Positions 27,971 through 63,404 of a stretch of 64,000 nucleotides of DNA are shown here, one piece after another; positions within the stretch are counted from its first letter, which is position 1, and each line of letters begins with the position of its first letter. Where the stretch lies: assembly GCA_002753735.1 (NCBI GenBank), contig PEAN01000008.1, positions 24,991 to 88,990 on the forward strand, given 5' to 3'. Both the position numbers and the translations under genes were made by a program. The stretch is from Magnetococcales bacterium DCbin4. Its GTDB lineage: Bacteria > Pseudomonadota > Magnetococcia > Magnetococcales > UBA8363. Under the pieces are notes generated by a model. That model did no database searches. It was not told the origin of the DNA and saw nothing but the letters and a program-made list of their open reading frames with translations.

Positions 27971-28046
27971 TGGCTCAACACCTCCTCCGCCCTACTCTAA
28001 TTTATCGGGGGGTTGGTGTCTCACTTTTCATTGGCACAGAGGGATC

Positions 28047-28365: not shown

Positions 28366-28395
28366 GGCAAAAAGACTATCATGAATCCTCGATAG

Positions 28396-31511: not shown

Positions 31512-31524
31512 GTCACGCCTGGTT

Positions 31525-33658: not shown

Positions 33659-33676
33659 ATAGTATACTCCATATTT

Positions 33677-34993: not shown

Positions 34994-35008
34994 GATGTTC
35001 GCGTCCCT

Positions 35009-36097: not shown

Positions 36098-36101
36098 GGA
36101 C

Positions 36102-37250: not shown

Positions 37251-37254
37251 GGCC

Positions 37255-38562: not shown

Positions 38563-38565
38563 AAA

Positions 38566-40364: not shown

Positions 40365-40379
40365 GCAAGACTTGCTCCG

Positions 40380-40946: not shown

Positions 40947-40966
40947 AGTGATGGACGTTCATCTTT

Positions 40967-43521: not shown

Positions 43522-44390
43522 CGTAAGGAGATCTCAAAAAGGGTGATACGTTTGTTCAAAATTAGAAACTGACCGCTTTCGCTTGCTATCAAACGCTCAA
43601 TGTTCGCCATGATCCATTCATGGTTGGTTTGATCCACATGATCGGTGAAAAGGCGTGTTTTCAAATAGTAGTTGGCAAACTCTCGCTCTGACTCAAACTG
43701 GATCCTGTTTTCATAATGTTCTTCTCGAACAGTCATACCTTGTTGTGAAAAATAACGCCTCACGCCCAACTCGAACCGTTCACGACCAACGCTGGCTGAG
43801 ACTTCAAGACCGATTGATCTATGAAAATCGAAAATTTCCTGATTATTAAGCGATGAGGGTCCCGTCAAGATGATCCTTCCCAAAGGAGCCAAGACCCGTA
43901 CCATTTGGCTTAATGCTCCATCCATATCTTCAAAATGATACAAGGCATAGTTACAAGTTACCACATCGAAAGCGTTATCCTCGAACGGTAACGGGTCCGC
44001 AAAAGCAACTTGATAGCGCAGGTCAAGCTCCTCCTGTCGGGCGGCCTTGATGGCATCTTGAATAAGGGATGCAGATTGATCAATACCGACGATGGTGCCC
44101 TTATTGCCAATTTTCTTGGCGTATAATCGTGTATGATGACCATTACCGCAAGCTACATCAAGCAAACGCATACCTTGCTTAGGACTCACATACTGTAACA
44201 AAACGGAATCCAGATCGAAGTTACCGCATTTCCAATTAATCGCCTGCCGATCCGCCAGGGCATAATCCCCAACATTCCTATTATCGATCACCTGCTTCAC
44301 CTTTATTCCAAACATGATGCCCACCTTCGGTGGGCAATTTTTTTCAATCTCATCGGCTTTGGTATAATCCCATTCCATCATGAAATCCAT
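43518..44390 (-). CDS. class I SAM-dependent methyltransferase
   Basis: MRLLDVACGNGHHTRLYAKKIGNKGTIVGIDQSASLI...FDVVTCNYALYHFEDMDGALSQMVRVLAPLGRIILTGPS. Confidence 0.87.
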   Translation of the reverse strand: MDFMMEWDYTKADEIEKNCPPKVGIMFGIKVKQVIDNRNVGDYALADRQAINWKCGNFDLDSVLLQYVSPKQGMRLLDVACGNGHHTRLYAKKIGNKGTIVGIDQSASLIQDAIKAARQEELDLRYQVAFADPLPFEDNAFDVVTCNYALYHFEDMDGALSQMVRVLAPLGRIILTGPSSLNNQEIFDFHRSIGLEVSASVGRERFELGVRRYFSQQGMTVREEHYENRIQFESEREFANYYLKTRLFTDHVDQTNHEWIMANIERLIASESGQFLILNKRITLFEISLR

Positions 44391-44444
44391 CAGCCAAAGG
44401 CCGATTTATCCCAAATCACAAAGATTCTCATGGAAATTCTGGAT

Positions 44445-45530
44445 TCAGTCCAGTTCGCAAGCCCGACCCTTACGCAACGCTTTGATGGTTCGTTCTACTT
44501 CCTCTTCTTCCAAACCGGTAATCCCAAGATAATAATCCATGCAGTCGGGACGCTTGGAATCGTATCTCTTCACCAACTCAAAACCCTCTTCCCGGGTCAG
44601 AATGCCAGCCCGGACATCGCGTGTTGCATGATCGGTAGCACGTCCAAAACCGCGTTTGAGATATTTCAGGTAATCGTGCATACCTGCCATGCGACACTCC
44701 ACGCTTTTATAGCCCTTGTACGTTCCCTCGACGTTGTCTTCCCTCCAGCCAATCTCCCTTTTAAGGAACTCAACGCAGCGCTCGTCATCCCAAAAAACAT
44801 AGTTGCCCAAATGGATTCCCTCAATACCGGCGGCCTGCATGTCTTTGGAAGTGGGAAAACGAAACATCCACAATTCTTCGGGAGTGATGTCATCTACCGC
44901 CATTTCTTCAATGCTGGCTTTAGCGGAAATCCTCTGAAAATACTGTTCGTCAAACAGGATCGGCTTGGCGTAATCCGCTTTGGTGCCGTTCTCCGCCGCC
45001 GACTCGCCCCAGACGAGTAGTTTGATCCCAAAGCGGATCGCCACCTGAAGCGAAAACGCCCCCACACCAGCGTGGCAATGCCAGCAACTGTCCCCAATGG
45101 TGTAGAGTGACCGTTTGGCCAAACGATTCACCAAGCTGCGCTTTGGAGTGAACATGATGTGGTCGATGTCGAATTTTTCCAGGGCGTTCTCGAGATTCCA
45201 TCGCCCTGTTTCTCCGAACCAACTGTGACTGAAGGTCACCGCCAGGACCCGCATGCCGTAGACCCGTGTCATCATGTAAAGCTGATAGCAGCTATCCTTG
45301 CCGCCGCTGATGGGCACGATACAGTGATAGCCGTCACCGGCGATGCTCTTATAATACTCCAGCTTTTCCCTCAGCGTCCGTTCACGCTCCTCCCAGTTGA
45401 TGCGCATTTTTTGCTCGGAGCTATTGCATCCGTTGCACAGTCCTCGTTCATCGAAGGTGATGCCCTCGACGGTTTCGGGCAGGCAGCATCGTACGCAGTA
45501 CTTTAATTGTGGAAACGGTTCATTGCTCAT
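44445..45530 (-). CDS. N-acetyl sugar amidotransferase (WbpG/PseA-like)
   Basis: LKYCVRCCLPETVEGITFDERGLCNGC...ISGGKDSCYQLYMM (PP-loop)...CWHCHAGVGAFSLQVAIRFGIKLLVWGESAAENG. Confidence 0.87.
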   Translation of the reverse strand: MSNEPFPQLKYCVRCCLPETVEGITFDERGLCNGCNSSEQKMRINWEERERTLREKLEYYKSIAGDGYHCIVPISGGKDSCYQLYMMTRVYGMRVLAVTFSHSWFGETGRWNLENALEKFDIDHIMFTPKRSLVNRLAKRSLYTIGDSCWHCHAGVGAFSLQVAIRFGIKLLVWGESAAENGTKADYAKPILFDEQYFQRISAKASIEEMAVDDITPEELWMFRFPTSKDMQAAGIEGIHLGNYVFWDDERCVEFLKREIGWREDNVEGTYKGYKSVECRMAGMHDYLKYLKRGFGRATDHATRDVRAGILTREEGFELVKRYDSKRPDCMDYYLGITGLEEEEVERTIKALRKGRACELD

Positions 45531-45703
45531 CTTTACGGTCTTTCTGCTCTGTGGAGCCAAATCAACGCAACGGTTTTCGGCGGCAACCATTTGGCGCAAG
45601 ACACCCATGTCGGTCAAGCTCAATCACCAGGAGAAGGGGGAGAATGAGTAGCACGGGCCTGGGATGCCGCATCCAGTCTGCCGTATTGTCGCGGTTCTTG
45701 AAG

Positions 45704-47911: not shown

Positions 47912-48973
47912 TTACCTCACGCAACTCACATGCTCGTCGTCAGGGGTAGCAGCTCTGCCATGACCGCCAGTGGACAATTGGGAGGGACAGTTCAAAATCC
48001 AACGCCATGCCGTCTCTATGATCTCGGCAAGATCATCATGGCGGAGCACCCACCCCAATTCACGCTTGGCCTTTCCCGGATCTGCAATCAGCCTGGAGGG
48101 ATCACCGGGACGGCGCGGTCCAATCTTCACAGAAATGTCACGACCGGTCACCCTCCGGGCGACCTCAATAACCTCAAGCACCGAAAAACCGCGTCCATTG
48201 CCCAGATTATAGACCGCCGACCCCTTACCGGACGTCAATGCCCCGAGCGCCAACATATGTGCTTCGATCAAGTCCGTCACATGGACGTAGTCGCGAATGC
48301 AGGACCCATCTGGTGTCGCATAATCGTTACCAAACAGCGTAATATGCGGTCGTACTCCCAAAGCGACCTGGAGCACGAGTGGAATCAGATGACTTTCCGG
48401 CGTGTGATCCTCGCCACAATCGCCCTCGGGGTCCGCACCGGCGGCGTTAAAATAGCGTAAGGTTACATGGCGCAGGCCGTAGGCGCGGGAAAAATCCTCC
48501 AGGATGCGTTCGACCATGAATTTCGATGTCCCGTAGGGATTGATCGGGGCCAAGGGGTGGTTTTCCGTGATTGGAACTTGTAGTGGGTCCCCATAGACGG
48601 CAGCGGTGCTGGAAAAAATCAGTCGCTCCAGGCCATGATCGCGCATGGCACGAAGCAACGAAAGCGCATGGCACGTGTTGTTCATATAATATTTTCCTGG
48701 ATCTACGACCGATTCCCCCGCTTCTATGAATGCCGCAAAATGCATGACTGCAAAAGGCCGGTGCGCCTGGATGACCTCATCCAACCGCGTGCGGTCGCCC
48801 AGGCTCCCCTCTTCCAACTGCCCCCACCGGACCGCGCTACGATGCCCGGTGGAAAAATCGTCATAAACCACAGGAAGATATCCCGCACGCGCCAATGCCT
48901 TACAGGCATGACTGCCGATGTATCCAGCACCGCCAGTCACGAGAATCTTATTGTTTTTTTCAGTCGTATTCAT
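47912..48973 (-). CDS. galE: UDP-glucose 4-epimerase
   Basis: ILVTGGAGYIGSHACKALARAGYLPVVYDDFSTGHRSAV...FSSTAAVYGDPLQVPITENHPLAPINPYGTSKFMVERIL...PRRPGDPSRLIADPGKAKRELGW. Confidence 0.93.
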   Translation of the reverse strand: MNTTEKNNKILVTGGAGYIGSHACKALARAGYLPVVYDDFSTGHRSAVRWGQLEEGSLGDRTRLDEVIQAHRPFAVMHFAAFIEAGESVVDPGKYYMNNTCHALSLLRAMRDHGLERLIFSSTAAVYGDPLQVPITENHPLAPINPYGTSKFMVERILEDFSRAYGLRHVTLRYFNAAGADPEGDCGEDHTPESHLIPLVLQVALGVRPHITLFGNDYATPDGSCIRDYVHVTDLIEAHMLALGALTSGKGSAVYNLGNGRGFSVLEVIEVARRVTGRDISVKIGPRRPGDPSRLIADPGKAKRELGWVLRHDDLAEIIETAWRWILNCPSQLSTGGHGRAATPDDEHVSCVR

Positions 48974-50182
48974 TCAGATCACCTGATCCCCGCAAGACAC
49001 GCCAGAGCGTTTTATGGCGCGCGCCACCCGGAGAAACGTTACCCCTCCCAAACCAACGAAGCCGGCCAGGGACGCCCCACCAAAAGAACCCGCCGCATCC
49101 GTAGTCACAACAGCAGCCAAGCATAGAAGCGCCGTCAACGGGGCCAGCGTCCGCTGCACGCCATGCACCCACCATCCCATGAAGCCGATCCACAACAAGC
49201 CCGCAGCAACCCATTCCAGAAGCATCAGCACCAAACCACCGCCGTCATCGATCGTCGTAACGCCATTCCCCCATGGCACGTCCACACCCAAGGACACCCC
49301 CAGAACAATGGCAGCCCCAACACCAAAAACGGCTGCGGCATGCCGAGGCAGATGACTCTTGAGCAGTGCATGCATGATCAAGGCTGCAACCAATAAAGCC
49401 AGGGCCGAGGCGCGACCAGCCTCCAGGTTCAAAAAAAGCGGAAACAGGCACAGAGACCCGGGTACCAACCACCATGGCAATGGAAATGTCCGCCCTTCAA
49501 GCCACATAAATGCCAACAAAGGTAACAGCAATGCTCCCGGCAACGGAGCTGCAGCACCGAGCAAACCCGGCGTGACGGCTCCGACAACAATGAGCATTTC
49601 CTCAAATCGACTGAGATGTTCCTGCAAATGGGATGTGGAGAACCCGTCCATTAAAACAAGTGCCAGGGCTCCAGCCAGAATGCTCCACAGAGTCGCCCAC
49701 GCATCCCCGGTCATTCCGAACACCAGACCGCCTGCAACCACGATGATGGCCATCCGATTCCAAAACAGGAAGGAGCGCCCCTCCCTCCGGACTTCAGGCA
49801 CCGGGGGTGTCATTCCCAGGAACGTCCCTGCTGAAGCAAACACCAAGTCCGGAACTGAGAGGTGATTAAGAATCTCTCGCCAAACCAACCCCGCTTCCCG
49901 CCAATTGTGCTCGCGGTAATTCAGACGGTCGCCCCGACGTTTGATTGCGGCGGTGGTATCACCGCGCACAAAAAACTGAAATCGCTTCTTATCCAGTAGC
50001 AGAAACTTATCTTCTGACGTATCGTCTCTCTTCCATTCGAGCCGAAACCCCTCTGGAGTGGAGTAAACAGTCAGTGTGCTTATGATTCCGTCCAGCACGC
50101 ATCTGTTTGCGGGGTCAAAACCCTGCCGCAAAGCCCGCCCGTAATCAAGCAACAGGTGGTAGAGGGCTAATTCGAGCTTCAT
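48974..50182 (-). CDS. hypothetical multi-pass membrane protein
   Basis: Soluble N-terminus followed by about 8-10 hydrophobic segments; stop/start overlap with neighbours. Confidence 0.5.
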   Translation of the reverse strand: MKLELALYHLLLDYGRALRQGFDPANRCVLDGIISTLTVYSTPEGFRLEWKRDDTSEDKFLLLDKKRFQFFVRGDTTAAIKRRGDRLNYREHNWREAGLVWREILNHLSVPDLVFASAGTFLGMTPPVPEVRREGRSFLFWNRMAIIVVAGGLVFGMTGDAWATLWSILAGALALVLMDGFSTSHLQEHLSRFEEMLIVVGAVTPGLLGAAAPLPGALLLPLLAFMWLEGRTFPLPWWLVPGSLCLFPLFLNLEAGRASALALLVAALIMHALLKSHLPRHAAAVFGVGAAIVLGVSLGVDVPWGNGVTTIDDGGGLVLMLLEWVAAGLLWIGFMGWWVHGVQRTLAPLTALLCLAAVVTTDAAGSFGGASLAGFVGLGGVTFLRVARAIKRSGVSCGDQVI

Positions 50183-51348
50183 GGAGCTGCCTCTCGCCGA
50201 GTTCCCTGAACGATCTCCCCGGCGATGCGCACCAGATCCTGTTTCGAGTGGGGCTTCAGGACACGGTCCGAACCGCCCTCAAACAAAAACAACCGGGCGC
50301 GGCGCAGCATGGGAGTGAAAAAACGGGCGGAAATGGAAATTTCCGGGAAACTGCCGTACATGCACCCGGAACAACGCGATGTGACGGCATGTGCCTGCAT
50401 GCGCATGCGTTCGCTCTGGAACCATGCGGGAAACCTGGGATCCATCACCGGATAGGATTCCGGCAGTCGGTAATCGCAGCAAACCGCCATGTCACCATTG
50501 GGTTGAACAACAAAATAAAGATTGGGACTGTCACAGACACCTCCGTTGCGCCGACGCCATCGAATGGGTTCATCGCAGATCTTGCGATAGATGTCATCAA
50601 GATATTCGTCAGAGTCGTACACATTGTGGCCGCTATTGCGCATCTGCTTGACCTGTTCCAGGATTTCGCGCACCCGTGGCAGCTGATCCCGTGAAAACCG
50701 CAGGGAGGGATCGAACGTGCTGAAATTGCGCGGTTCGGCAGGAACCGTGACATGGGCCGGAACCAGGGAGACCCACCAACCGATCTCGTCGGCAAAGCGG
50801 ATCACATCGGGAATATCCTCCAAGTTGCGCGGGGTGATGACGCAACCGAGAGCGGCGAAGCCATCCCGGGGAAAGATTTCATTGATCAGGGAAATGGCGT
50901 TCATGGCTTCGTCCCAGGAGCGGTCGAAGCCGCCATTGAGGCGATTCTGAACGGCGGGACGCAACGAATCCAGGGAGACGGAGACATCCCGCACTCCGGT
51001 CGCCGCCACGGCCTCCAACTGATCGCGCTTGGCAAACCCGTTGGTCTGAATGCGGGGATGGATGCGATGCGCCATAAAGGCGCGACATATCTCCGGGAGA
51101 TCCTTGCGCATGAAAGGTTCGCCTCCGGTCAACAATACCACCGAAGTCCCGATTTTTGCCAGATTCTTGGCAATATCCCAACACGCTTCGGTGGAAACCT
51201 CCTCCTGATCAGCATTGGCGTAAATGATATTGCACTGCTCGCATGCCAGATTGCAGCGGGACGTGACGTAGAACTGCACATAAGCAGGCGTATTTTTGGT
51301 GATGACCGAGGACGCCAGACGGGCCACCCCCCCTTCGAAGAAACTCAT
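50179..51348 (-). CDS. radical SAM protein (SPASM-like C-terminus)
   Basis: VQFYVTSRCNLACEQCNIIYANAD (CxxxCxxC) and a C-terminal Cys cluster (VCDSPNLYFVVQPNGDMAVCCDYR...RCSGCMYG). Confidence 0.9.
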   Translation of the reverse strand: MSFFEGGVARLASSVITKNTPAYVQFYVTSRCNLACEQCNIIYANADQEEVSTEACWDIAKNLAKIGTSVVLLTGGEPFMRKDLPEICRAFMAHRIHPRIQTNGFAKRDQLEAVAATGVRDVSVSLDSLRPAVQNRLNGGFDRSWDEAMNAISLINEIFPRDGFAALGCVITPRNLEDIPDVIRFADEIGWWVSLVPAHVTVPAEPRNFSTFDPSLRFSRDQLPRVREILEQVKQMRNSGHNVYDSDEYLDDIYRKICDEPIRWRRRNGGVCDSPNLYFVVQPNGDMAVCCDYRLPESYPVMDPRFPAWFQSERMRMQAHAVTSRCSGCMYGSFPEISISARFFTPMLRRARLFLFEGGSDRVLKPHSKQDLVRIAGEIVQGTRREAAP

Positions 51349-51351
51349 GGA

Positions 51352-52191
51352 TTACTCTTCCTCTTTCCAGACCACGATGCCGATATTCCAACACATCCAA
51401 CCAAGAATCGGCATGACACCCAAGACGATCCGATCCAGAAACGCTAAAGGTTTGTACCATGCACGCAATTCGGCTTCGTGAGTGAGGATTCGTTTCCAAT
51501 AGCGATCTTCATTGGGATGGACCCGATCAATCAGATAAAACTTGACGAAAATAAGAAGAGCGCTGAGCCAAAAAAACCGCACCTCCACGCGGGGAAAGCG
51601 CGCCCGGAACCAGCCGAATTGACTGTAACGTATGGGGTGCTCGTCGATGGTACGCACGCCCGAGGCCATCCTGCGGTAAATGTTGATGACCGGATTGTGC
51701 GCCACGGGATCCCAGAAAGCCGCCATCCCTCCCGGTTTCAGGACCCTCTTCACCTGATCAAGACACTGCTCAATGTCCACATGGTGGAGAAGATTCGCGG
51801 CATAGACGAAGTCGAATGAGGCTGCGGGTAAGACCGAAAGATCGTCCGCCGAACAGGTCTGAGTTTCCACGGAAACGCCGTGATGCCTCGCTACATTTTT
51901 CACCAATTCAAGCATTTTCGGCGAAATGTCCGTCGCAACGACGCTGGCACCTTGCTTGGCGAAAAAGACCGCTCCCTCACCCGCGCCGCTGCCCAACTCC
52001 AGCAGACGCTTTCCGCGCACGTCTCCCATGCGACGCCAGATCCATTGCGGCTCCGGAGAGGTGCAGGCGGAAAACGTTTCATCGACCAGCACAGTAGCGG
52101 GATCGATCACTTCGGACCAGTCGTCATGAAACGCACGTTCTCGATCATTGCGTTCCGCTTGATCGTAAGGCAAGACGGACATCGGTTTCAA
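51352..52191 (-). CDS. class I SAM-dependent methyltransferase
   Basis: GKRLLELGSGAGEGAVFFAKQGASVVATDISPKMLELV...FDFVYAANLLHHVDIEQCLDQVKRVLKPGG. Confidence 0.87.
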   Translation of the reverse strand: MKPMSVLPYDQAERNDRERAFHDDWSEVIDPATVLVDETFSACTSPEPQWIWRRMGDVRGKRLLELGSGAGEGAVFFAKQGASVVATDISPKMLELVKNVARHHGVSVETQTCSADDLSVLPAASFDFVYAANLLHHVDIEQCLDQVKRVLKPGGMAAFWDPVAHNPVINIYRRMASGVRTIDEHPIRYSQFGWFRARFPRVEVRFFWLSALLIFVKFYLIDRVHPNEDRYWKRILTHEAELRAWYKPLAFLDRIVLGVMPILGWMCWNIGIVVWKEEE

Positions 52192-53186
52192 CCATCCTTT
52201 TCCGTATCGGTTGTCTCAGCGGGCAAGAAAGATTCTGCGCTGATCACTTCGTGAATGATATAGTGGGGACGACCCTGGACATTGATAAAGACGCGGCCGA
52301 GATACTCACCAAGGACCCCTAAGCAAAGGAAGTTGACCCCGAACAAGAACCACACAGTCACCAGAATGGAAACCACACCATGAACAAAGAGGTGGGGAAA
52401 GGCCAGCCTGAGGATCACCCAGATGATCGCGGCAACGATCCCAAAAAACGTCATGCCGAAGCCCAGAATCGACATCCAGTGCAGCGGTTTGGTGGAAAAA
52501 GAAAAGATGGCGTCCAGAGAGAATGCGATCATTTTTTTTAAGGGATATTTGGTCTCCCCATCCACCCTGGGATCCCGATCATACAAAAAAGGCTCCTGCC
52601 GATACCCCAGCCACGCAACCATCCCTCGCAGGAAACGATGCTGTTCCGGCATGTTGTTCAGCGCCAGCACCAGACGGCGGTCCATGATGCGGAAATCACC
52701 CGTGTTTCTAGGAATATTCGTCGTCGTCATCTTGGAGAGGAAGCGATAGAACAAAGACGCTGTGATCAACTTGAATCTGGTTTCTCCCTTTCTTTCCCGG
52801 CGTTGTCCGTAAACCACGTCCACCCCGTCACGCCAGCGCTCCAGCATCGGCATCAGGAGTTCTGGAGGATCCTGCAAGTCGGCGTCGATAATGGCGACAA
52901 CATCGCCACGTACCAGGGAAAGCGCGGCGGAAACCGCCATCTGATGTCCGAAATTGCGACTCAGGTTGATCACCCGGTAAACCGGATTGCGTTGGACTTG
53001 TGCAGTAGCGATCTCCAGGGTCCGATCACGGGAACCGTCATTGACCAGAACCACTTCCACTCTGACCGGTAGTGACTGAACCACCAAATCCAGGCGTTCA
53101 AACAACTTCCCCAAAACAGGCTCTTCGTTGTACATGGGGATGACAAGAGACAACAGTGTCTCATGTGATAAAACTCTGTTGGCCAT
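52188..53186 (-). CDS. GtrB/CsbB-type polyprenyl-phosphate glycosyltransferase (GT2, two C-terminal TM segments)
   Basis: LSLVIPMYNEEPVLGKLFERLD...VLVNDGSRDRT...RNFGHQMAVSAALSLVRGDVVAIIDADLQDPPELL; two C-terminal TM segments and GEYLGRVFINVQGRPHYII. Confidence 0.9.
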   Translation of the reverse strand: MANRVLSHETLLSLVIPMYNEEPVLGKLFERLDLVVQSLPVRVEVVLVNDGSRDRTLEIATAQVQRNPVYRVINLSRNFGHQMAVSAALSLVRGDVVAIIDADLQDPPELLMPMLERWRDGVDVVYGQRRERKGETRFKLITASLFYRFLSKMTTTNIPRNTGDFRIMDRRLVLALNNMPEQHRFLRGMVAWLGYRQEPFLYDRDPRVDGETKYPLKKMIAFSLDAIFSFSTKPLHWMSILGFGMTFFGIVAAIIWVILRLAFPHLFVHGVVSILVTVWFLFGVNFLCLGVLGEYLGRVFINVQGRPHYIIHEVISAESFLPAETTDTEKDG

Positions 53187-53290
53187 GAATCCTCCGGTTT
53201 GACAAAGGACGGAAAGCGTCGATTTGTGTTTTCAATGCGCTTCACCAAGTCGTCACATGCATCATGCGCCTGGTGCCGTGAAACGCGGTT

Positions 53291-54874
53291 CTATTCCGCA
53301 GACACTTTCATTACGGGTACCGGCATCTGCTTCCATTTAGAATTCGATGCCTTGGGTGCCGGATGACATGATCGTAGCGTTTTCGGGTCGATCTTCAACG
53401 GCTCCCATTGTTCCTTGTAACGAAAATTCTCTTTGCCCACCTCACCGCTACCATGAATCAGCAGCCACAAGAACCGGATGCCATAATAGACGAGCCAGAA
53501 AAACTCACCCGATCTGATACCACGCCAGATATTTCGAAATATATATTCAGGGTTCTTATAATAGAGGTCTATATATGCCTTTCTATAATATTTCGTAATC
53601 ATCGCCGAGGATAGCGTCGGATGGTCGAAGATGGCATTCGCCTCGTTATATACGTTATAGTCATCCCAATTAAACGTCTTGATGCGTCCTTGTTCGCGCA
53701 ACATGTCGAACATTGGCGTCCCGGGGAAGGGAACGGTCATGCCGAATTTCATCACATCTACCTTGGTTCGGCGAGCGTAACGGATGGTGTCGTTCATCGT
53801 TTTTTCTGTATCGGAAGAGAGACCAAACATATACATGCCCCAGGTCTCCAACCCGGCCTTACGGGCCAGAGCGACCGCCTTGATCCCTTCCTCCAAGGTC
53901 GCCCTCCCGCTTTTGCCGAACGCCTTGAGTACCTCGTCGTTGCCGCTTTCAAAACCGAAATGAACCCGGTAGCATCCGGCGCGCTTCATGACATCGAACA
54001 GTTCGAGATTAGCGCTCTCTACCCGGATGCCATTGCTGCATGTCCAGGCAATATTCAAATTCCTTCTGATAATCGCCTCGCATACCTGGATCGCCCATTT
54101 GTTGTCGCTGGTAAAAATATCATCAGCGAGATGGAATTCCCGGTAGCCCAGTTTCATCAGGTAGGCCACCTCCTCGGCGCATCGTTCTGGCGACTTCTTC
54201 CGATATCCAAGCCCCATGGAGTTCTTGCTGGCGCAAAAGTCGCATTTGAAAATGCAGCCTCGGGAAAATTCGGCGGTGATGAGCGGCGCATGGCGGGCCA
54301 TGATTTTCGAAATGCGCTTTTCATACTCTTCGATCGGATAAAGATCCCATGACGGCATGGCCAGTTCATCCAGATATTCAACCAATGGCCGATCACCGTT
54401 GGCCACCACCTCCCCGTCATGACGCCAATAAATGCCGGGAATATCTGCGGCGGGCTTGCCATCCAGGATATCGACCACCGTTCGGTCCCCCTCTCCCACG
54501 ACCACCATGTCCAGAGCGGACTCTCTGATGGTTTCGGACGGCAGGGCAGAGGCGTGAATGCCACCGCCGACAACCAGAATGTCCTTCGAAATGTCCTTTA
54601 CCAAAAAGGATATATCACGCATCTGGTTAATCAATGGAGTGGTTGCGGTAATCCCAACCACATCAGGCCGCAACCGCAGGATCTCGGCACGAACATATTC
54701 GGGGTCGTAGGAGCGATAGGAGAGATCCATGATCGCAGCTTCGTGTCCACCGATCCTCGCGGCACCGCCAAGCACTGCCAAGCTGAGAACCGGATAGACC
54801 GGATTGGCAATGCCAGCCTGCGTGGAGCCGTACACGTTGTAATAGGAAGGGTTGATCAACAAAATCTTAGACAT
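53291..54874 (-). CDS. B12-binding domain radical SAM protein
   Basis: N-terminal cobalamin-binding-like domain (ILLINPSYYNVYGS...VVGGGIHASALPSETI), then EFSRGCIFKCDFCASKNSMG (CxxxCxxC). Confidence 0.9.
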   Translation of the reverse strand: MSKILLINPSYYNVYGSTQAGIANPVYPVLSLAVLGGAARIGGHEAAIMDLSYRSYDPEYVRAEILRLRPDVVGITATTPLINQMRDISFLVKDISKDILVVGGGIHASALPSETIRESALDMVVVGEGDRTVVDILDGKPAADIPGIYWRHDGEVVANGDRPLVEYLDELAMPSWDLYPIEEYEKRISKIMARHAPLITAEFSRGCIFKCDFCASKNSMGLGYRKKSPERCAEEVAYLMKLGYREFHLADDIFTSDNKWAIQVCEAIIRRNLNIAWTCSNGIRVESANLELFDVMKRAGCYRVHFGFESGNDEVLKAFGKSGRATLEEGIKAVALARKAGLETWGMYMFGLSSDTEKTMNDTIRYARRTKVDVMKFGMTVPFPGTPMFDMLREQGRIKTFNWDDYNVYNEANAIFDHPTLSSAMITKYYRKAYIDLYYKNPEYIFRNIWRGIRSGEFFWLVYYGIRFLWLLIHGSGEVGKENFRYKEQWEPLKIDPKTLRSCHPAPKASNSKWKQMPVPVMKVSAE

Positions 54875-54911
54875 AGACCTGACTTATCCCCATGGTGGCT
54901 ATTGCGGCGGG

Positions 54912-56633
54912 TCAGCGTAACATTCCCATCAATCGTTTCCAGAGACGAACACGCATCCTGCGGGGTAGTAAACGTGCGATGAAATCCATACCTTTGGAAC
55001 GGATGCCAACTTTCAATACAGGCCCTTGCTTCCGTTTTACCGCCAATAAAATTGCATCCGCCACGGTTTCCGGAGTATCCAGGCGTTCGTTCGGCAGAAC
55101 CAACACCCCCGCACGTTCCTGGAAACGGGTACTCATGCCGCCAGGACAGACAGTCAATACCTCGACTCCACTCCCTTCCATCTCTCCCCACAAAGCTTCG
55201 CCAAAAGAGAGCAGCGCCGCATTGGAGGCCGCATAGGCAGCCATATATGGCAACGCCTGATAGGCAGATGACGAACTGATGAGCACGATGCGCCCAAAAG
55301 AACGCGAGGTCATGACCAGAGCCGCATGGTGGCACAGACGGACCCGGGAAACCAGGTTGACGAGAAAAATATTCACCTGAGTTATCCCGTTCAATTGCGT
55401 CACCGGCCCCCGGGCACCGAACCCTGCGCAGGCGAACACCTCGTCGATACCCTCACCGCCCCAGATTGGAGATGTCAACAACCGGTTGAGTTCATCGTCC
55501 CGGCTGAGGTCACACACCACGCGCTTGACGACGGCAGGGTGACCGGAAAGCATGGCGGCGAGTCCATCCTCATCCTTGTCCACCAAAATCAGGCGTCGGT
55601 TCATGTCGGCCAATTTGACAGCAAGAGCCGCACCCAACCCGGAAGCAGCACCGGTAAGCAATGTCAACCCAGCAGGTGGAAAATAAAAGTCGGACCGGCG
55701 CCGTTCCGCCTGGATCACCTCTTCCACGCTCTCCCGGGGGCCATGCCGTGGAGACCAGCCCAATCCTTGCAAAGCCGCGTCGGAGGCGGTCAGGGCATCA
55801 TACAGCAGGGCCCTGGCTTGGAACGGAAGCCAACGCATGACGGGACGCAACAGGTCGGCGGCCCAAGCCAGGGGAACCCGGACTGCGTTCGGGGCAGCCC
55901 AGGCGAATACCTGCCCCAGGGCGATGGGATGACCCGCCGCAAAAAAGATCCGATTCACTGCCTCCGGATGAGTCGATGTGAGAATCAGTGCCTCCACGAG
56001 ATCGTCCACATGCAGAAAGGAAAATCGTCCCGGAAAGGCAAACCGGGACAAAAGACCGCCGGACATTGCGCTACGTACGAAGACCGCCAGATGTGAGCGC
56101 AGCTTCATTTCCGCACCGACCACAGGAGTCGGACGCACGATGCACCAGGGCAGACTGCTCTCTCGAACCGCAACTTCGGCCTCCCATTTGGAACGGCCGT
56201 AATCCGTGCACGGATGTGACGGGTACGTTTCGTCGACCGGCTCTCGGCAAAGATCAGTCGGGGCACGATCCACCGCGCCAAACGTACTGACGAACACAAA
56301 GCGGGAAAGCCCGGGAACCTGATCTTTCACCGCCGCCAATAACGCAGTGGTAGCCAAAAAGTTGGATTGCCTGAATTGAGGACCGTTTCCGAACTTGGCT
56401 TCCCCGGCAAGATGGATGACCACGTCGCTTCCCGATAAAGCGGACGCATAGGTCTTGGGACTTCCCAGGTCACCCGCAACCAGGATCAACCCCGGCAGCG
56501 TGGAACCTACTTTCTCGGTTGAGCGGACGAGTGCTCGGACCTCGGCACCTTGTGCCACCAAGCGGGTACACAGGCGGCGGCCTATGAATCCCGAAGCCCC
56601 GGTGATGAAATAAATGCGACGTCCAAGGCTCAT
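54912..56633 (-). CDS. bidomain protein: NAD-dependent epimerase/dehydratase + classical SDR
   Basis: YFITGASGFIGRRLCTRLVAQGAEVRALVR...YGRSKWEAE; second Rossmann domain LTLLTGAASGLGAALAVKLADMNRRLILVDKD...YMAAYAASNAALLSFGEAL. Confidence 0.87.
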   Translation of the reverse strand: MSLGRRIYFITGASGFIGRRLCTRLVAQGAEVRALVRSTEKVGSTLPGLILVAGDLGSPKTYASALSGSDVVIHLAGEAKFGNGPQFRQSNFLATTALLAAVKDQVPGLSRFVFVSTFGAVDRAPTDLCREPVDETYPSHPCTDYGRSKWEAEVAVRESSLPWCIVRPTPVVGAEMKLRSHLAVFVRSAMSGGLLSRFAFPGRFSFLHVDDLVEALILTSTHPEAVNRIFFAAGHPIALGQVFAWAAPNAVRVPLAWAADLLRPVMRWLPFQARALLYDALTASDAALQGLGWSPRHGPRESVEEVIQAERRRSDFYFPPAGLTLLTGAASGLGAALAVKLADMNRRLILVDKDEDGLAAMLSGHPAVVKRVVCDLSRDDELNRLLTSPIWGGEGIDEVFACAGFGARGPVTQLNGITQVNIFLVNLVSRVRLCHHAALVMTSRSFGRIVLISSSSAYQALPYMAAYAASNAALLSFGEALWGEMEGSGVEVLTVCPGGMSTRFQERAGVLVLPNERLDTPETVADAILLAVKRKQGPVLKVGIRSKGMDFIARLLPRRMRVRLWKRLMGMLR

Positions 56634-57583
56634 GCCGAGCCTCCAGACCGGTCAGAAATCCGCTCTTCCTGCGGTGTCAGTGTGAAGGTCAAAACACCCC
56701 CCTGGGAAGGAGGAACGATCAGAGATAAAATCCACGCCATAGGCAACAACAGACCGCTCAACACAAGCGCCGCCATGCGCCCGCCGACACCGGGAATGTT
56801 TTTCTTCAAACGGCTGTGAACGAAATTGGCCGACCGGGTCATACCGCCCGCCAGGGTATCCACCCAACCAAAGATCTCGTATTCAAAATTCCGCCCTCGG
56901 AGGAACTCCACCCGATCTTTCCGCCAGTGTGCACGTAACACGGTAATGAGTACGGAATCCCAGTACCACACATGCCTGCCATAATCGAGAAACGAAGCGT
57001 AGCGACCGAAGAGTCGGGGCTGCCCACCGCCCTGATTGGGAATGCTGACGATGATTGTTCCTCCGGGGGCCAATTTGGTACGCAAGGCACCTAGAAATGC
57101 CAGCGGTGCGTTCACATGTTCCAGGACATGCCACAGAAAGATGACGTCGAATCGCCCTGCGGGCAACTCATCCATTTCAGCGACTACAGCAACGCCCCGC
57201 TGTACAGCATTGGCACGGCGGGCAGACTCCGGTTCCAATCCCATTACCTTTGCGTAACCCTGGTGGCGCAGAAATACCAGAAACTGGCCATCTCCACATC
57301 CCATATCCAGAATGCGGACGGATCGGTCCCGCAACATGGGGAGCTGCGCCGTGAGCCAGCGCCAGCGAAGCTGGAACAGGGCATCCATGACCCGGGAATC
57401 GCCCTTCTGGATATCCGTCTCCACACTTGCCTTGATTTGGCGCATCGGTGGCAGGCGCAAAGCTTTACATTGATCGCATCGCAAAAAGGACAAGCCGACG
57501 TCCCAGACTTCAGCGAGTCCCCGCAGACCCGCGTCGGCAGACTCGTCACAGGCGGGACACGTCATCGGCATGGTTCCGTGCAT
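56630..57583 (-). CDS. methyltransferase with N-terminal zinc-ribbon-like CxxC motifs
   Basis: MTCPACDESADAG...LRCDQCKALRLPP; SAM motif RILDMGCGDGQFLVFLRHQGYAKVMGLEP...FDVIFLWHVLEHVNAPLAFLGALRTKLAPGGTIIVSIPN. Confidence 0.87.
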   Translation of the reverse strand: MHGTMPMTCPACDESADAGLRGLAEVWDVGLSFLRCDQCKALRLPPMRQIKASVETDIQKGDSRVMDALFQLRWRWLTAQLPMLRDRSVRILDMGCGDGQFLVFLRHQGYAKVMGLEPESARRANAVQRGVAVVAEMDELPAGRFDVIFLWHVLEHVNAPLAFLGALRTKLAPGGTIIVSIPNQGGGQPRLFGRYASFLDYGRHVWYWDSVLITVLRAHWRKDRVEFLRGRNFEYEIFGWVDTLAGGMTRSANFVHSRLKKNIPGVGGRMAALVLSGLLLPMAWILSLIVPPSQGGVLTFTLTPQEERISDRSGGSA

Positions 57584-57588
57584 GGACG

Positions 57589-60075
57589 CTACGTACTCCC
57601 CTTTTCTGCGACGACCGCCCATTTCCGACACGCGCTCATCAGCCAGAAAAATCCCGCAAGGGCGATCCCCGAAAGCGGTAGCCAGACCTTATAGTGAGAT
57701 AAATCATAGTGAACGGTCATTCCGCCCCCTTCCAGGACAAGATCGGAAATGCGGAAGGGAACCGCGGTCAAGGGGAAGGGGATCGTCTTCCCGGCGGCGA
57801 CCGTCAGCGTCCATTTCCCTTCCAGTGGCAACCCGAAAACCGGAACGACCCGGTCAGTATAATACTCCAGGGGATGGTTCATGAACAACGCCCCACGAAT
57901 GCCCACCAGATCCTCGGGAGCCGAGATCTGCCACATCAGATTGGACACCCGGGCCGCCGACAACTCACGCCGCACGCCATTCAACCGGTCGAAGGCAGCA
58001 ATGCTTTCCGGCGCGCCTCTGGCCAAACCGTTTAGCATATCGTTGATATCCTGCGTCGTACCCCCTGGAAAGAAGGAGACGTCGCTCCAACTATCAGACA
58101 ACGCATAAGCCCGCAAATCTCCGACACGTTGAACCAGCTCGACGTCTGGCCTGCCGATCTCACGATCCGTGAACAGGTAGCGTATTCCCAACGAATTGAA
58201 CAACCGCGCCGCCGCAGGACTCAAGGCACCCGTTTCCGCCTCGATGACATATTCGGCGCAGATCCATAACACCTCGAAAAGATTGGCACCTTCCCGATTG
58301 TACTGTTCCACATGATTCAGGGGATACCAGAACTGCCGGGTCTTGATGAACAGTCCGGTGTCGAGGGGGCCGTCCAGGGTACGGAATCCGGCGTTCGTTG
58401 CCTCGAACCGGTAAAAGGAACTGTTTTCAGATGTGCAGGTTTCCAAGGTCAACGCCCGTGCTCCAGGGGTCAGCCCCGCGAAAATAGGATGAGAAGCCGG
58501 ATCTTGCGCCGTCGGCAGGTTGGGGTAATGAAACTGATAAATGCCGACATAGCAAACACCCACGAGAAACGCCAGCGCCAAAGGCCGCGCACCACGGTGC
58601 TCCTGGGTGGTATGGTGCCAAAAGAGAAAGAACAACACAACAATGACCACCCCCACCAGGGCGGCTCCCCAACGATCCGGGGTCTGAAACAGATGGACCA
58701 AGTCGACGAGCTTTCCTGTCATGAGTTTTTCAGGCACGACGGCCCCGAGCGGGGCCAACGCCACAGCCAAAAGATTTGCAAAAAACAGTATAAGGATGAA
58801 TCCATGCGCCCCCCACTTCCAGAACCTTGTCAGAAGGTTGGCCCTGGAAACGCTTTCCGCCAGCCAAGCCAGAAGCAGCATGGCGAACAGGTTACCGAAA
58901 AAAAGCATGCGCATGGGTGCGTTGTGGGAATACTTCATACCCGGGAACCATTCGCGAAACAACATATTAACGCTCAGGAAACCATTCACGAGGATCACGA
59001 ACAGAGTGATGGACAAAAGCCCCCAGACCACCGCCGGTGTCGCCACCAAGGCGCGTCGTCCCCGTCCGAACCATGCTGCCAACAGGAGGGGAAGCAAAAT
59101 CATGAATGGCAGGTAGATCCCCAACCAGAGCTGAGAAACGAGAAATGCATCCAATAAGCTTCCCAATCCCGTCCACGGCGCGAACAGGGGATAGGCCAGA
59201 GCCACCGGCTCACGCACCATACGGGACTCAAGCAGAATGGGAGCCAGAAAAAAGATCATCGTCATGACGGCCAGGAGAAACGCCGCCACACCGAAGAGTG
59301 TTCCCTTTGCAACCCGAGACCGCTCCCCTTGGGCATGAATGAAATGGCCGAGGGCGACAATCGCCAGAAATATGCCGATGAACAACAAAATGGAAATGAA
59401 GTTGATCGCCACCGCCATAACGACCAACCCAAAGAAAATGAGGAGGAAACGTGGTTTGGCGGTTTCGATGAAACGATGAAAAGCAGCAAGAATACAGAGG
59501 CCACCGTAATACAGGCCTGGTTGATGGGTATGGGCGAGAAAATGCAAAGCCAATGGCGTCAGCGTTCCGAAGATGGCGACCATGAGGCTCCATTCCGGCG
59601 ACAACCGTAGAATCCGAGCCCACCAGAAAAAACCGAAGGCACCAAAATTGAGGAGCAGGAACATCTGCACCCCTTTTGCGACTTTTTCGTTCTTGATGAG
59701 CAGCCACGGAAGATGGAATGGGGAGAGATAGCTGTACACCATGGAATCTTCTTGAGACATACCACCGAAAACGCGTTCATTCCAAAAGGGAAGTTCCAGA
59801 TTGAGTAGACTCTCCCGATAAAAACTGAGAAAATTCCTTTCCTGATTGATGAAATCCGCCTGCCCATATTGATCCCGGGCGGTCAGGGGAGCCTCTGAAA
59901 GATGGGCAGAAGCGAACGTCCCCTGCCCCAGAACAGCACGTGGGGCATAGATCATCCGTCCCGACAAATAGGGCCAAACGGTTGCCAGGAACAGCAGTTC
60001 CAACAGAAAGAATGCCAGCAGAAACTTCCTTGATGAGGGTGCCACCGCTTCGCCCATCGGGGAAGGTGTATTCAT
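57589..60075 (-). CDS. YfhO-family membrane protein (putative GT-C glycosyltransferase)
   Basis: 828 aa, polytopic with an early loop QADFINQERNFLSFYRESLLNLELPFWNERVFGGMSQEDSMVYSYLSPFHLP (YfhO-like) and a C-terminal soluble region. Confidence 0.72.
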   Translation of the reverse strand: MNTPSPMGEAVAPSSRKFLLAFFLLELLFLATVWPYLSGRMIYAPRAVLGQGTFASAHLSEAPLTARDQYGQADFINQERNFLSFYRESLLNLELPFWNERVFGGMSQEDSMVYSYLSPFHLPWLLIKNEKVAKGVQMFLLLNFGAFGFFWWARILRLSPEWSLMVAIFGTLTPLALHFLAHTHQPGLYYGGLCILAAFHRFIETAKPRFLLIFFGLVVMAVAINFISILLFIGIFLAIVALGHFIHAQGERSRVAKGTLFGVAAFLLAVMTMIFFLAPILLESRMVREPVALAYPLFAPWTGLGSLLDAFLVSQLWLGIYLPFMILLPLLLAAWFGRGRRALVATPAVVWGLLSITLFVILVNGFLSVNMLFREWFPGMKYSHNAPMRMLFFGNLFAMLLLAWLAESVSRANLLTRFWKWGAHGFILILFFANLLAVALAPLGAVVPEKLMTGKLVDLVHLFQTPDRWGAALVGVVIVVLFFLFWHHTTQEHRGARPLALAFLVGVCYVGIYQFHYPNLPTAQDPASHPIFAGLTPGARALTLETCTSENSSFYRFEATNAGFRTLDGPLDTGLFIKTRQFWYPLNHVEQYNREGANLFEVLWICAEYVIEAETGALSPAAARLFNSLGIRYLFTDREIGRPDVELVQRVGDLRAYALSDSWSDVSFFPGGTTQDINDMLNGLARGAPESIAAFDRLNGVRRELSAARVSNLMWQISAPEDLVGIRGALFMNHPLEYYTDRVVPVFGLPLEGKWTLTVAAGKTIPFPLTAVPFRISDLVLEGGGMTVHYDLSHYKVWLPLSGIALAGFFWLMSACRKWAVVAEKGST

Positions 60076-60087
60076 GAAACAATCCCC

Positions 60088-61500
60088 TCAATGCCGACTG
60101 GAAAGAAACACGGATTTGACCTTGGAAAGCAATGCGCTCACTCCCCCTTTTTTGGAAACGAACTCCTTGATCAGCCGTTTCATGGGCTTTGGGCGCAGGT
60201 AGAAGCGTCGGTACGCCAAACGCTGCAACTGACGCAATCGTTCGCTAGCCAGACCGGGCCGTTCGAATACGGCCCGGTCCGGCTTCATTTCGTCCCAGTT
60301 GATCTCCTCCAGGGACAAATAACCACCGGCCACCAAGTCATTGAAGGATTCAGTCCCTGGCAGGGGCATGAAAATGGAAAAGTTGGTTTTATCGATGTCC
60401 AGGTCGATCGCGAACTGGATGGTCTTCAAAATCTGCTCCTCGGTCTCTCCCGGAAAGCCAATCATGAACAACCCCTGGGGTATGACCTTTGATTGATGCA
60501 CCAAAGCGACGCGTTCCCGGATGGTCTGGGTGGTGATCTTCTTTTTGACCCGTTCCAACACCTCGTCGTTGGCGCTTTCGATGCCCACCGCAATGTAACG
60601 GCAACCCGCCCGGTACATGAGGTCCAGGATCACTTCATTCATGGTGTCCAGACGGACGCCGTTGGAACACTCCCACTGTATTCCCAAATCGCTTGCAATT
60701 AACTTCTCGCACAACTCCTTGAAATAACGAGGATTCAATGTCAACTCATCATCGCTGAAATTGATGCCGGTCACACCTTTGGTCTCTTTCAGGAAACGGA
60801 GTTCGGCAATCACGTTGTCCACAGAGCGGTAACGCATTTTCCGTCCGACGATGTTGGGGGTAGCGCAATAGGTGCATGAAAACGGGCATCCCCTGGTCGC
60901 CATCACTGGAATGAACGGCAGCGAGGTCATGAAATCGGGATACTCGTCCAGATCGACATCTTCCCAGCGAATACGGGGCAATTGATCCAGTTCCTCCACG
61001 ATCCGCGTCGGATTGCTGCGAACCTGATCGTCGATCCGATACGACAGCGAGGGAACATCATGCGGCGAGTGCCCGTTCAAAACGCGCTTGCAGAACATGG
61101 GAAAGCCGATCTCGCCCTCACCCTTAAAGACGTAATCCACTTCCGGCATCTTCTGTAAAATGTATTCGGGCAAACTGGAAGCGTGGGGACCGCCGACGAT
61201 GACGACGCACTCCGGTAGAATCCTCTTGCAGGCGGCGGCCATCTTCCTGACTGCATTATGATCTGGACTGTAAGCCTTCAATCCGATGATTTTGAGATGC
61301 GAATTCGCGGCGAGAATCTGCTCCCACTGATCCTCAAGGATGCCATCCTTGGGACAATGCAGAATCACAGAGTCGATCCCGTGGTCTTTAAGGGCGCTGT
61401 ACAAATACAGCAGTCCCAGATCCAGAACGATTCCCGAATACCCATGGCGAATGGGAATGGTCAGCAAAATACTTGCACTGATTTTCATGGAGTGGCCCAT
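60088..61500 (-). CDS. B12-binding domain radical SAM protein
   Basis: Cobalamin-binding-like N-domain (IIGLKAYSPDHNAVRKMAAACKRILPECVVIVGGPHASSLPEYIL); ATRGCPFSCTYCATPNIVG (CxxxCxxC). Confidence 0.9.
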   Translation of the reverse strand: MGHSMKISASILLTIPIRHGYSGIVLDLGLLYLYSALKDHGIDSVILHCPKDGILEDQWEQILAANSHLKIIGLKAYSPDHNAVRKMAAACKRILPECVVIVGGPHASSLPEYILQKMPEVDYVFKGEGEIGFPMFCKRVLNGHSPHDVPSLSYRIDDQVRSNPTRIVEELDQLPRIRWEDVDLDEYPDFMTSLPFIPVMATRGCPFSCTYCATPNIVGRKMRYRSVDNVIAELRFLKETKGVTGINFSDDELTLNPRYFKELCEKLIASDLGIQWECSNGVRLDTMNEVILDLMYRAGCRYIAVGIESANDEVLERVKKKITTQTIRERVALVHQSKVIPQGLFMIGFPGETEEQILKTIQFAIDLDIDKTNFSIFMPLPGTESFNDLVAGGYLSLEEINWDEMKPDRAVFERPGLASERLRQLQRLAYRRFYLRPKPMKRLIKEFVSKKGGVSALLSKVKSVFLSSRH

Positions 61501-61542: not shown

Positions 61543-62478
61543 TCATGTGCGCCCTGCATTCTTAAACCAACGCCACGTCGCACACACCCCCTCCTTGACA
61601 GTGACGGACGGCGCAAAGCCAAGAACCTTTCTGGCCAATGAGATATCACTGTAATTCCTGATGATCTCTCCATTGCGCGCGGGTTGGTGCACCACCGTCA
61701 GCCTCCTGCCGATATCGGGTTCCACCTCAGCTCGCAGCAAGGCGACCAAGCGGTTGACGGACGTTTCCACCCCCGATCCCAAACAAAAAACAGCGCCCCC
61801 TTGTTCCACACGCAGGGCACGCACAATACCATCAACGAGGTCGTCGATGTAGACGAAATCCCGTGTCTGCTCGCCGTCTCCGAAGACGATGAGTTCTTCC
61901 CCATTGATGACATGCTTGAGGTATTTGGCTACCACGCTGCCTTTGCGAACCGATCCCGGCCCATAGACATTGGCGAAGCGCAGGCTCACTGATTGGAGTC
62001 CATAAAGGGCGTGATAAGCGCGGCTGTAATACTCCCCCATCAGTTTGGTACAGCCATAAGGAGAAAGCGGAATGGGCAGCATCTTCTCATGCATCGGCGG
62101 TTCCCGTTCCCCGACCACACCGTTCGACGAGGCGAACACGAAGCGGTTCACACGACACCGGCGGGCAGCCTCCAGCAGGTTGAGCGTGCCGCGCACGTTG
62201 ATCTCCATATCCTCCATGGGATGCTCGATGGAATGCAGCACATTGGTTTGGCCCGCCAAATGGACGATTCCATCCATCCCGGCGGCGACCGCATCACAAA
62301 GTTCCCGGTTTCGAATATCCCCTTCGATGAAGTCACACCCCAACGTAAGCAGGGATTCCGGATTCACAGCGGCATTGCTCAAATTGTCCAGAATCCGAAC
62401 CTGTGCGCCATCTCCAACCAACCGGCGCACCAGCGTATGGCCGATAAACCCCAGGCCGCCGGTGATAAGTATTTTCAC
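61543..62478 (-). CDS. NAD-dependent epimerase/dehydratase (UDP-glucose 4-epimerase-like)
   Basis: MKILITGGLGFIGHTLVRRLVGDGAQVRILDNLS...FASSNGVVGEREPPMHEKMLPIPLSPYGCTKLMGEYYSRAY. Confidence 0.9.
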   Translation of the reverse strand: MKILITGGLGFIGHTLVRRLVGDGAQVRILDNLSNAAVNPESLLTLGCDFIEGDIRNRELCDAVAAGMDGIVHLAGQTNVLHSIEHPMEDMEINVRGTLNLLEAARRCRVNRFVFASSNGVVGEREPPMHEKMLPIPLSPYGCTKLMGEYYSRAYHALYGLQSVSLRFANVYGPGSVRKGSVVAKYLKHVINGEELIVFGDGEQTRDFVYIDDLVDGIVRALRVEQGGAVFCLGSGVETSVNRLVALLRAEVEPDIGRRLTVVHQPARNGEIIRNYSDISLARKVLGFAPSVTVKEGVCATWRWFKNAGRT

Positions 62479-63404
62479 GAAACGCCACCACCCTTTCCCT
62501 GTTGTTTAATTTTCAAAGGCAACCCCGCTTGGTCATCTCGATGAAATGCTTGTAGAGACTCCATTGAAGTCGGCATGGAATGTCCGCCCAGGGCTTGTTC
62601 CAGTTTGCCGACATCCAGGCTCAAATCCTTGCCCCGTTGGGCCGTAAAAGGGACATCATCCAGAGACCCTGCGTGAACGCACCCGGGGTCCAGTCGAAAA
62701 ATCCTGGCGAGTTCCTGCCCAAAACGATATTTAGACCATGCATCGCGGGTGGCCAAATTGTAAAGACCTGAAATATTTCTTGATAGACAAAGATCAAGAA
62801 TCTCCGCGAAACTGAACGTATAGAGGGTGGAACAAATGGCGTCGGTGAATCCTGTAACGGTGTTCCCGGCGCGCAGATTGGCCAAGAACCATTCTCCAAG
62901 GCTTAACTTGTCCTGGATGTTCCACCCGAAAATGTTGGTGCGCAATATGAGGGATCCGGGCCGGGCGGCGACCAGTCTCTCCGCCTCCAATTTGGTGTGG
63001 CCATACCAATTTCTTGGATCCGTCGCATCCTCTTCTCCATACGGTCCCCTGGAGCCGGAATAGACCGAATCGGTCGAAATGAAAACGACTTTGGTGGAAG
63101 CCTCCCTCAACGATTCCAACAACGCATCGGTGGTGAGAACATTGGAGCGTTGTGCCCCCTCCCGATCCTTCTCCTGTCCATCAATGTCAGTGCGGGCGGC
63201 GCAATGAACGAGCACGTCCGGTTCAAGTCGGGCCATGACTTGGTGCGTTCGAGAATGATCCTGCAGATCGAAGCCCAGGACCTCCACCCCTGGAATGGTG
63301 ACAGCATGAACGTTGAACAGCCCAACGACGTCGGCTTTTTCCCGGAAATACCATGCCAGATTGCTGCCAAGCAAACCACTAACTCCGGTTACGACGATCT
63401 TCAA
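62475..63404 (-). CDS. SDR-family sugar reductase (RmlD-like)
   Basis: MKIVVTGVSGLLGSNLAWYFREKADVVGLF...VFISTDSVYSGSRGPYGEEDATDPRNWYGHTKLEAERLV. Confidence 0.87.
   Translation of the reverse strand: MKIVVTGVSGLLGSNLAWYFREKADVVGLFNVHAVTIPGVEVLGFDLQDHSRTHQVMARLEPDVLVHCAARTDIDGQEKDREGAQRSNVLTTDALLESLREASTKVVFISTDSVYSGSRGPYGEEDATDPRNWYGHTKLEAERLVAARPGSLILRTNIFGWNIQDKLSLGEWFLANLRAGNTVTGFTDAICSTLYTFSFAEILDLCLSRNISGLYNLATRDAWSKYRFGQELARIFRLDPGCVHAGSLDDVPFTAQRGKDLSLDVGKLEQALGGHSMPTSMESLQAFHRDDQAGLPLKIKQQGKGGGVS

Follow-up and report, generated by a model that had tools for sequence, protein, structure and literature searches.

Radical-SAM, methyltransferase and SDR genes packed with a GtrB-type glycosyltransferase gene suggest an undescribed route to an unusual cell-surface sugar in a Magnetococcales genome

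We analysed a 64,000-nucleotide stretch of DNA from Magnetococcales bacterium DCbin4 (contig PEAN01000008.1, positions 24,991 to 88,990 of the forward strand; hereafter the window), which carries a long run of minus-strand genes for three radical S-adenosylmethionine (SAM) enzymes, two methyltransferases, several short-chain dehydrogenases/reductases (SDRs), a GtrB/CsbB-type glycosyltransferase and polytopic membrane proteins. An earlier note on this DNA had listed most of these genes, and every one of its frames exists on the minus strand; Pfam supported its two cobalamin (B12)-binding radical SAM enzymes (rSAM_A and rSAM_B), its third radical SAM enzyme, both methyltransferases (MT1 and MT2), the SDR fusion, and the RmlD- and GalE-like SDRs. 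The operon, which the note had ended at 49 kb, is indeed packed and extends further, from 63404 to at least 45704, with successive intergenic gaps of -4, 42, 12, -43, -4, 37, 104, -4, 3, -4, 0 and 12 bp. The window ends where the contig ends (G000:C77 88990), which leaves about 600 bp ahead of the run's first gene, so additional genes upstream are possible. The genes of the run, in order of transcription, are as follows.

62475..63404, minus strand: RmlD-like SDR, first of the run (Pfam RmlD_sub_bind 3.5e-37; 127 bits to the rmlD equivalog model, below its cut-off of 224)
61543..62478, minus strand: GalE2, GalE-like NAD-dependent epimerase/dehydratase (Pfam Epimerase 4.6e-61; UDP-glucose 4-epimerase structure 4zrm, E=1e-51)
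60088..61500, minus strand: rSAM_A (Pfam B12-binding PF02310 and Radical_SAM PF04055)
57589..60075, minus strand: YfhO-like polytopic membrane protein, putative periplasmic GT-C glycosyltransferase (37.5 bits to a custom hidden Markov model, HMM)
56630..57631, minus strand: MT1, class I methyltransferase (Pfam Methyltransf_23 4.1e-25)
54912..56633, minus strand: SDR fusion, an extended SDR joined to a classical SDR (Pfam Epimerase and adh_short)
53291..54874, minus strand: rSAM_B (Pfam B12-binding PF02310 and Radical_SAM PF04055)
52188..53186, minus strand: GtrB/CsbB-type polyprenyl-phosphate glycosyltransferase (Pfam Glycos_transf_2)
51352..52191, minus strand: MT2, class I methyltransferase (Pfam Methyltransf_11 3.7e-22)
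50179..51348, minus strand: SPASM-like radical SAM enzyme (Pfam Radical_SAM 9.9e-24)
48974..50182, minus strand: memU, a soluble N-terminus followed by about seven hydrophobic segments (no Pfam or NCBIfam match)
47912..48973, minus strand: GalE, UDP-glucose 4-epimerase of the same run (TIGR01179, 432 bits against a cut-off of 262)

Much of this set recurs in a distant bacterium. A scan of 84,980 GTDB genomes for rSAM_B returned 13 clear orthologs, 61-73% identical over a 210-residue fragment (one truncated by a contig end) and about 47-58% identical at full length, from Alphaproteobacteria, 'Deltaproteobacteria', Planctomycetota and Lentisphaerae, a Pelagibacter bin, and Nitrospinaceae and Thiotrichales metagenome-assembled genomes (MAGs). 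The three radical-SAM cysteines are invariant across the orthologs, and in a tree from a quick search, with long outside branches flagged, the window protein and 12 orthologs formed one clade (support 100) against paralogs and BchE references. The Lentisphaerae ortholog (contig VGWI01000006.1, locus L166; L207 489-11285) sits inside a block of about 11 kb with homologs of the SPASM-like enzyme (42%), the SDR fusion (36%, both domains), MT2 (43%), GtrB (42.5%) and, weakly, MT1 (27%). This block also has a second B12-binding radical SAM enzyme (37% identical to rSAM_B) and a protein with nine transmembrane (TM) segments, unrelated-looking, which stands in the place of the YfhO-like protein; an asparagine-synthase-type amidotransferase gene adjoins it. 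Across 2.64 Mb of fetched loci, the SPASM-like and SDR-fusion queries scored 230-506 bits in two same-order genomes (G028 and G008) and the Lentisphaerae contig only, and at most 69 bits elsewhere (next best 68 and 69, respectively). Because four rare families (the SPASM-like enzyme, SDR fusion, MT2 and rSAM_B) meet in two phyla, chance is implausible. We did not find rSAM_B in 288 other sampled genomes of the phylum of the Lentisphaerae MAG, so horizontal spread is likely.

Within the window's own phylum the set is rare. A close rSAM_B protein was absent from 398 other same-phylum genomes, and the best match in 200 relatives was 35% identical with different gene contexts; homologs at 30-35% in same-phylum genomes stand in other contexts and were rejected as orthologs. 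Of the remaining enzymes, the SDR fusion had a homolog in 1 of 199 relatives apart from the own genome (G008, 49-50%, full length), the SPASM-like enzyme in 1 of 199 (G028, 57-58%), MT2 in 2 of 318 (67% in G028, 61% in G008) and rSAM_A in 1 of 278 (G028, 65-66%). Contig C147 of G028, a same-order relative, reads rSAM_A, MT2, SPASM-like enzyme and a memU-like gene before the contig ends; the product of the last, at the same position as memU, matches it weakly (28% identity, pairwise E=5e-5). The G008 homologs of MT2 and the SDR fusion sit on two separate contig ends, so the two genes are at most putatively linked there. The near-full set is therefore present in two genomes, the window's and the Lentisphaerae MAG, and parts of it in two more. 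Neither a plasmid collection (PLSDB), which held no relatives of the SPASM-like enzyme, SDR fusion or YfhO-like protein and only BchE-like and generic rSAM_B relatives (26-29% among the matches listed), nor an alignment-based scan with family-wide radical-SAM motifs, which gave generic paralogs and no cluster among the matches listed, added to these.

Two further rSAM_B neighbourhoods deserve mention. A Nitrospinaceae MAG has two contigs (L171 and L172) with very similar surroundings, namely a NuoF-like gene, an MT1-like methyltransferase (in L171 a weak homolog, 27%), rSAM_B and a PMT-type membrane protein. Within about 4 kb of the closest ortholog (58%, L163 9356-15092) lie genes for a UbiA-type prenyltransferase and a GT87 protein, which recall polyprenyl-phosphopentose systems.

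The glycosyltransferase in the run is, judged from its sequence, GtrB-type beyond reasonable doubt, as the earlier note had proposed: it matches Synechocystis GtrB (5EKP) over nearly its full length (phmmer E=2.9e-88), carries two C-terminal TM segments and scores 242 bits against the PgfS model. The note's call of a YfhO protein has weaker support. The frame at 57589-60075 has no Pfam match, PF09586 included, even up to an E-value of 10, and was not among the PF09586 matches of its own genome. Against a custom HMM built from frames of PF09586-positive proteins of the own genome and relatives it gave a weak match of 37.5 bits over profile positions 23-598, with an N-terminal motif ESLLNLELPFWNERVFGG opposite the consensus esllefelplWnPynsgG; almost every other polytopic neighbour scored close to 0 bits, and one reached 17. 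The protein has 10 hydrophobic segments, and its single-sequence structure model (pLDDT 41) was not used. We class the protein as a GT-C candidate with remote likeness to YfhO. Its adjacency to radical SAM genes is not conserved: searches of 60 relatives, of GTDB contigs and of PLSDB gave no homolog, nor did those of eight of the nine searched genomes bearing an rSAM_B ortholog, and the match in the ninth, the one exception among the genomes searched, spans just 74 residues (E=0.0034). The pairing with a GtrB-type gene, by comparison, did recur for the radical SAM, methyltransferase and SDR genes in the distant Lentisphaerae bacterium, with pieces in the two same-order genomes. The gene set is thus rare but real, and the case is stronger for a core of rSAM, MT2, SDR fusion and SPASM-like genes with GtrB than for the YfhO link.

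In rSAM_A as in rSAM_B, the B12-binding domain precedes a radical SAM domain with the CxxxCxxC motif, the architecture of the superfamily. Their nearest NCBIfam models are HpnJ, BchE, Sden_1168 and ApyD, at 120-208 bits against cut-offs of 480-750. For rSAM_A and rSAM_B, respectively, scores were 208.2 and 182.6 bits for HpnJ (TIGR03471, cut-off 577.6), and the pair scored 167 and 185 bits for BchE (TIGR02026, cut-off 481), 99.2 and 70.9 bits for the AprD4 family (NF033070, cut-off 500), and far under the cut-off for HpnR. Since the scores lie so far below the HpnJ, BchE and HpnR cut-offs, the concern raised in the earlier note that these genes belong to a known hopanoid pathway falls away; the HpnJ and BchE cut-offs rule out the hopanoid and bacteriochlorophyll pathways alike, and neither enzyme fits a known pathway. 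In its own 4.5-Mb genome (G000), rSAM_B has 17 matches of this general type, at least some of them in glycan-type neighbourhoods.

The note's suggestion of unusual C-methylation survives as one option among several, the best sequence relatives of known chemistry being HpnJ, BchE and AprD4. The nearest solved structure to rSAM_B by profile search is AprD4 (6fd2, E=6.7e-37), then MgmA and TsrM, and its structure model (pLDDT 84.7) matches TsrM, AprD4, MgmA, TokK and CysS, with a TM-score of about 0.6 for TsrM, MgmA, TokK and CysS. These neighbours mix C-methylases with a dehydratase, so homology cannot indicate the reaction. AprD4-like members may not use cobalamin. AprD4 partners with the NADPH-dependent reductase AprD3 (PMC5461906), and rSAM_B adjoins the SDR fusion, so deoxygenation by rSAM_B appears as plausible as methylation.

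The other tailoring enzymes carry features of their own. The SPASM-like enzyme of the earlier note has the Radical_SAM Pfam domain and a conserved C-terminal cysteine pattern, kept in three orthologs, on which, together with weak matches to SPASM-type families, its label rests; a Pfam SPASM domain was not found in it. In the second domain of the SDR fusion, YAASN replaces YxxxK in the window and G008, whereas the Lentisphaerae homolog has YGASK, so this domain may have been altered, inactivated or re-purposed in the window lineage. MT1 has N-terminal cysteine pairs and one hydrophobic C-terminal segment, and MT2 has two such segments, which is compatible with membrane-associated work.

Downstream of the run, the region 30231-45623 reads as a surface-glycan locus with nonulosonic-acid genes. 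It encodes a WbuX amidotransferase, a methyltransferase, a PIG-L deacetylase, an amidase, a GNAT protein, a cytidylyltransferase, an oxidoreductase and a PseC-like pyridoxal phosphate-dependent aminotransferase, followed by a UDP-sulfoquinovose-synthase-like protein, a GT2 protein, PseB, NeuB and a Wzx-type flippase. The UDP-sulfoquinovose-synthase-like gene (36102-37250) scored 444 bits, under the cut-off of 575, and a 66% homolog in a same-order genome (L037 5646-6788) lies about 2.3 kb upstream of another B12-binding radical SAM gene. The glycan locus is bordered downstream (26223-29418) by genes resembling an integrase-core (rve) transposase and a PD-(D/E)XK family transposase, and on the contig upstream of the window (C77; L041 9535-19999) an open frame runs for at least 3488 codons to the end of the fetched stretch and would encode a giant protein.

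We consider it an even chance that the run is a surface-glycan decoration pathway in which GtrB/GT-C glycosylation is combined with cytoplasmic radical-SAM tailoring of an unusual sugar. Directly supported are the gene identities, the operon packing, the recurrence of the tailoring genes alongside GtrB in a second phylum and the subsets in relatives. Substrate, flippase, acceptor and product are inferred, as are the enzyme activities, all steps that follow GtrB loading, their order, and tailoring on a polyprenyl- rather than nucleotide-linked sugar. The GalE, GalE2 and RmlD-like SDRs would provide a nucleotide sugar, which GtrB would load onto polyprenyl phosphate at the cytoplasmic face. One or more radical steps at a sugar carbon by rSAM_B, rSAM_A and the SPASM-like enzyme would then precede export, whether as a deoxygenation like that of AprD4 with its reductase, a C-methylation, or a bond rearrangement like those of HpnJ or BchE. 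The SDR fusion would reduce the intermediate and MT1 and MT2 would then O-methylate it. Flipping of the tailored donor could fall to memU, a candidate flippase or scaffold (about seven TM segments), or to a Wzx-type protein (30231-31559). The YfhO-like protein, as the GT-C enzyme, would then place the sugar on a surface glycan in the periplasm. The tailoring enzymes would thus form a mobile set whose product is predicted to be a deoxy, C-methyl or rearranged, O-methylated sugar. A bolder version, in which horizontally spread B12- and SPASM-type radical SAM enzymes rebuild the carbon skeleton of the sugar on polyprenyl phosphate before export to a surface glycan, is speculative and we hold it to be unlikely.

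Several observations weigh against such a decoration pathway. The 6.4-kb G028 contig has the trio of rSAM_A, MT2 and SPASM-like enzyme without GtrB, and most rSAM_B orthologs lack MT2, the SDR fusion or the SPASM-like gene nearby. The YfhO-like gene is not kept with the tailoring set, the GT-C partner differing from cluster to cluster, and no small open reading frame with four TM segments or GtrA/GtcA-type flippase gene was seen within the run. Polytopic proteins of PMT_2, DUF6044 and GT87 types do lie near rSAM_B orthologs, in 8 of 11 loci; control loci of other B12-binding radical SAM genes were nearly as rich in them (12 of 21), so a tie of rSAM_B to GT-C or polytopic proteins was rejected and the pattern is not used as evidence.

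Some of these points fit another arrangement, in which the tailoring enzymes make an unusual nucleoside diphosphate sugar for an ordinary Wzx/Wzy-type repeat unit, with GtrB and the YfhO-like protein as an interleaved, separate side-branch. The Wzx-type flippase and nonulosonic-acid genes of the locus, the lack of rSAM/YfhO adjacency elsewhere and the G028 trio without GtrB on its short contig all favour it. We nonetheless think it rather unlikely, as GtrB lies inside the same 11-kb Lentisphaerae block, a GtrB-like gene (36.6%) lies near the rSAM_B ortholog of another locus (L164), and both methyltransferases carry hydrophobic C-terminal segments. A modified membrane glycolipid, like the hopanoid cyclitol-ether branch in which HpnI is followed by HpnJ, with the surrounding glycan genes incidental, would account for HpnJ being the top NCBIfam match of rSAM_A (208 bits) and the second of rSAM_B, for the lipid-linked amino sugar that HpnJ uses as its substrate (PMC12583986), and for the distant UbiE/UbiG likeness of MT2 with its hydrophobic C-terminal segments. 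This reading seems improbable given that both B12-binding enzymes fall far under the HpnJ cut-off and hpn genes are absent from the run, that the GT2 protein is GtrB-type (5EKP) and not HpnI, and that the set lies among surface-glycan genes in both phyla.

It could also be that common, shuffled polysaccharide-locus genes have become interleaved by chance without sharing a pathway, and the frequency of B12-binding radical SAM enzymes of this subfamily in glycan loci generally (the 17 matches in the own genome) and the many different contexts of rSAM_B are in keeping with this. We judge it very improbable: the SPASM-like enzyme, SDR fusion, MT2 and rSAM_B occur together in the window and the Lentisphaerae MAG, with pairs or triples in two more genomes; each rare family is missing from almost all of the 200-400 relatives searched; and identities of 36-56% argue against the Lentisphaerae contig having been misbinned from an organism closely related to that of the window.

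Environmental polysaccharide loci often contain radical SAM genes whose presence is unexplained, and a set recurring in unrelated phyla offers a defined, testable unit, a GtrB making a lipid-linked sugar plus a few assayable enzymes. If the chemistry does take place on polyprenyl-phosphate sugars, it would widen on-carrier sugar editing of the DprE1/E2 kind, an epimerisation, to radical chemistry at carbon, and would point to surface sugars possibly missing from current glycan databases.

In the literature we found nothing combining radical SAM enzymes with YfhO/GtrB or polyprenyl systems. Several known systems resemble parts of the run. In three-component systems such as CsbB/GtcA/YfhO, GtrB/CsbB charges polyprenyl phosphate, the product is flipped and a GT-C protein, e.g. 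YfhO, transfers the sugar (PMC7389260). The window resembles these systems of Bacillus, Listeria and Staphylococcus in having a GtrB/CsbB-type glycosyltransferase and a YfhO-like protein in one operon, but its YfhO similarity is remote, it is without a GtcA-type flippase gene, and it adds three radical SAM enzymes, two methyltransferases and an SDR fusion. HpnJ, which makes the hopanoid cyclitol ether, shares the B12-binding and radical SAM architecture and possibly a lipid-linked sugar substrate, although the window enzymes reach 208 and 183 bits against 577.6 and hopanoid genes are absent from the run. AprD4, a radical SAM 1,2-diol dehydratase working with the reductase AprD3, acts on a sugar, and rSAM_B likewise adjoins a reductase-type SDR fusion; with both B12-binding enzymes far below the NF033070 cut-off of 500, an AprD4-type reaction here is predicted at most. 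Class B B12-dependent C-methylases (TsrM, MgmA, TokK, CysS and GenK) have the same domain order as rSAM_B, but share 13-22% identity with it and have no substrate context in common. Unlike the pentofuranose systems of PPPRS, MATE flippase and GT136 and the mycobacterial DprE1/E2, the window would take its donor from GtrB and not from a phosphoribosyltransferase, and its tailoring would be radical-SAM based. The SDR epimerases DprE1/E2 and ORF13 are held to act on an already lipid-linked sugar (PMC11127046), and these systems are a precedent for modifying a polyprenyl-phosphate sugar with cytoplasmic SDRs ahead of its transfer by a GT-C protein.

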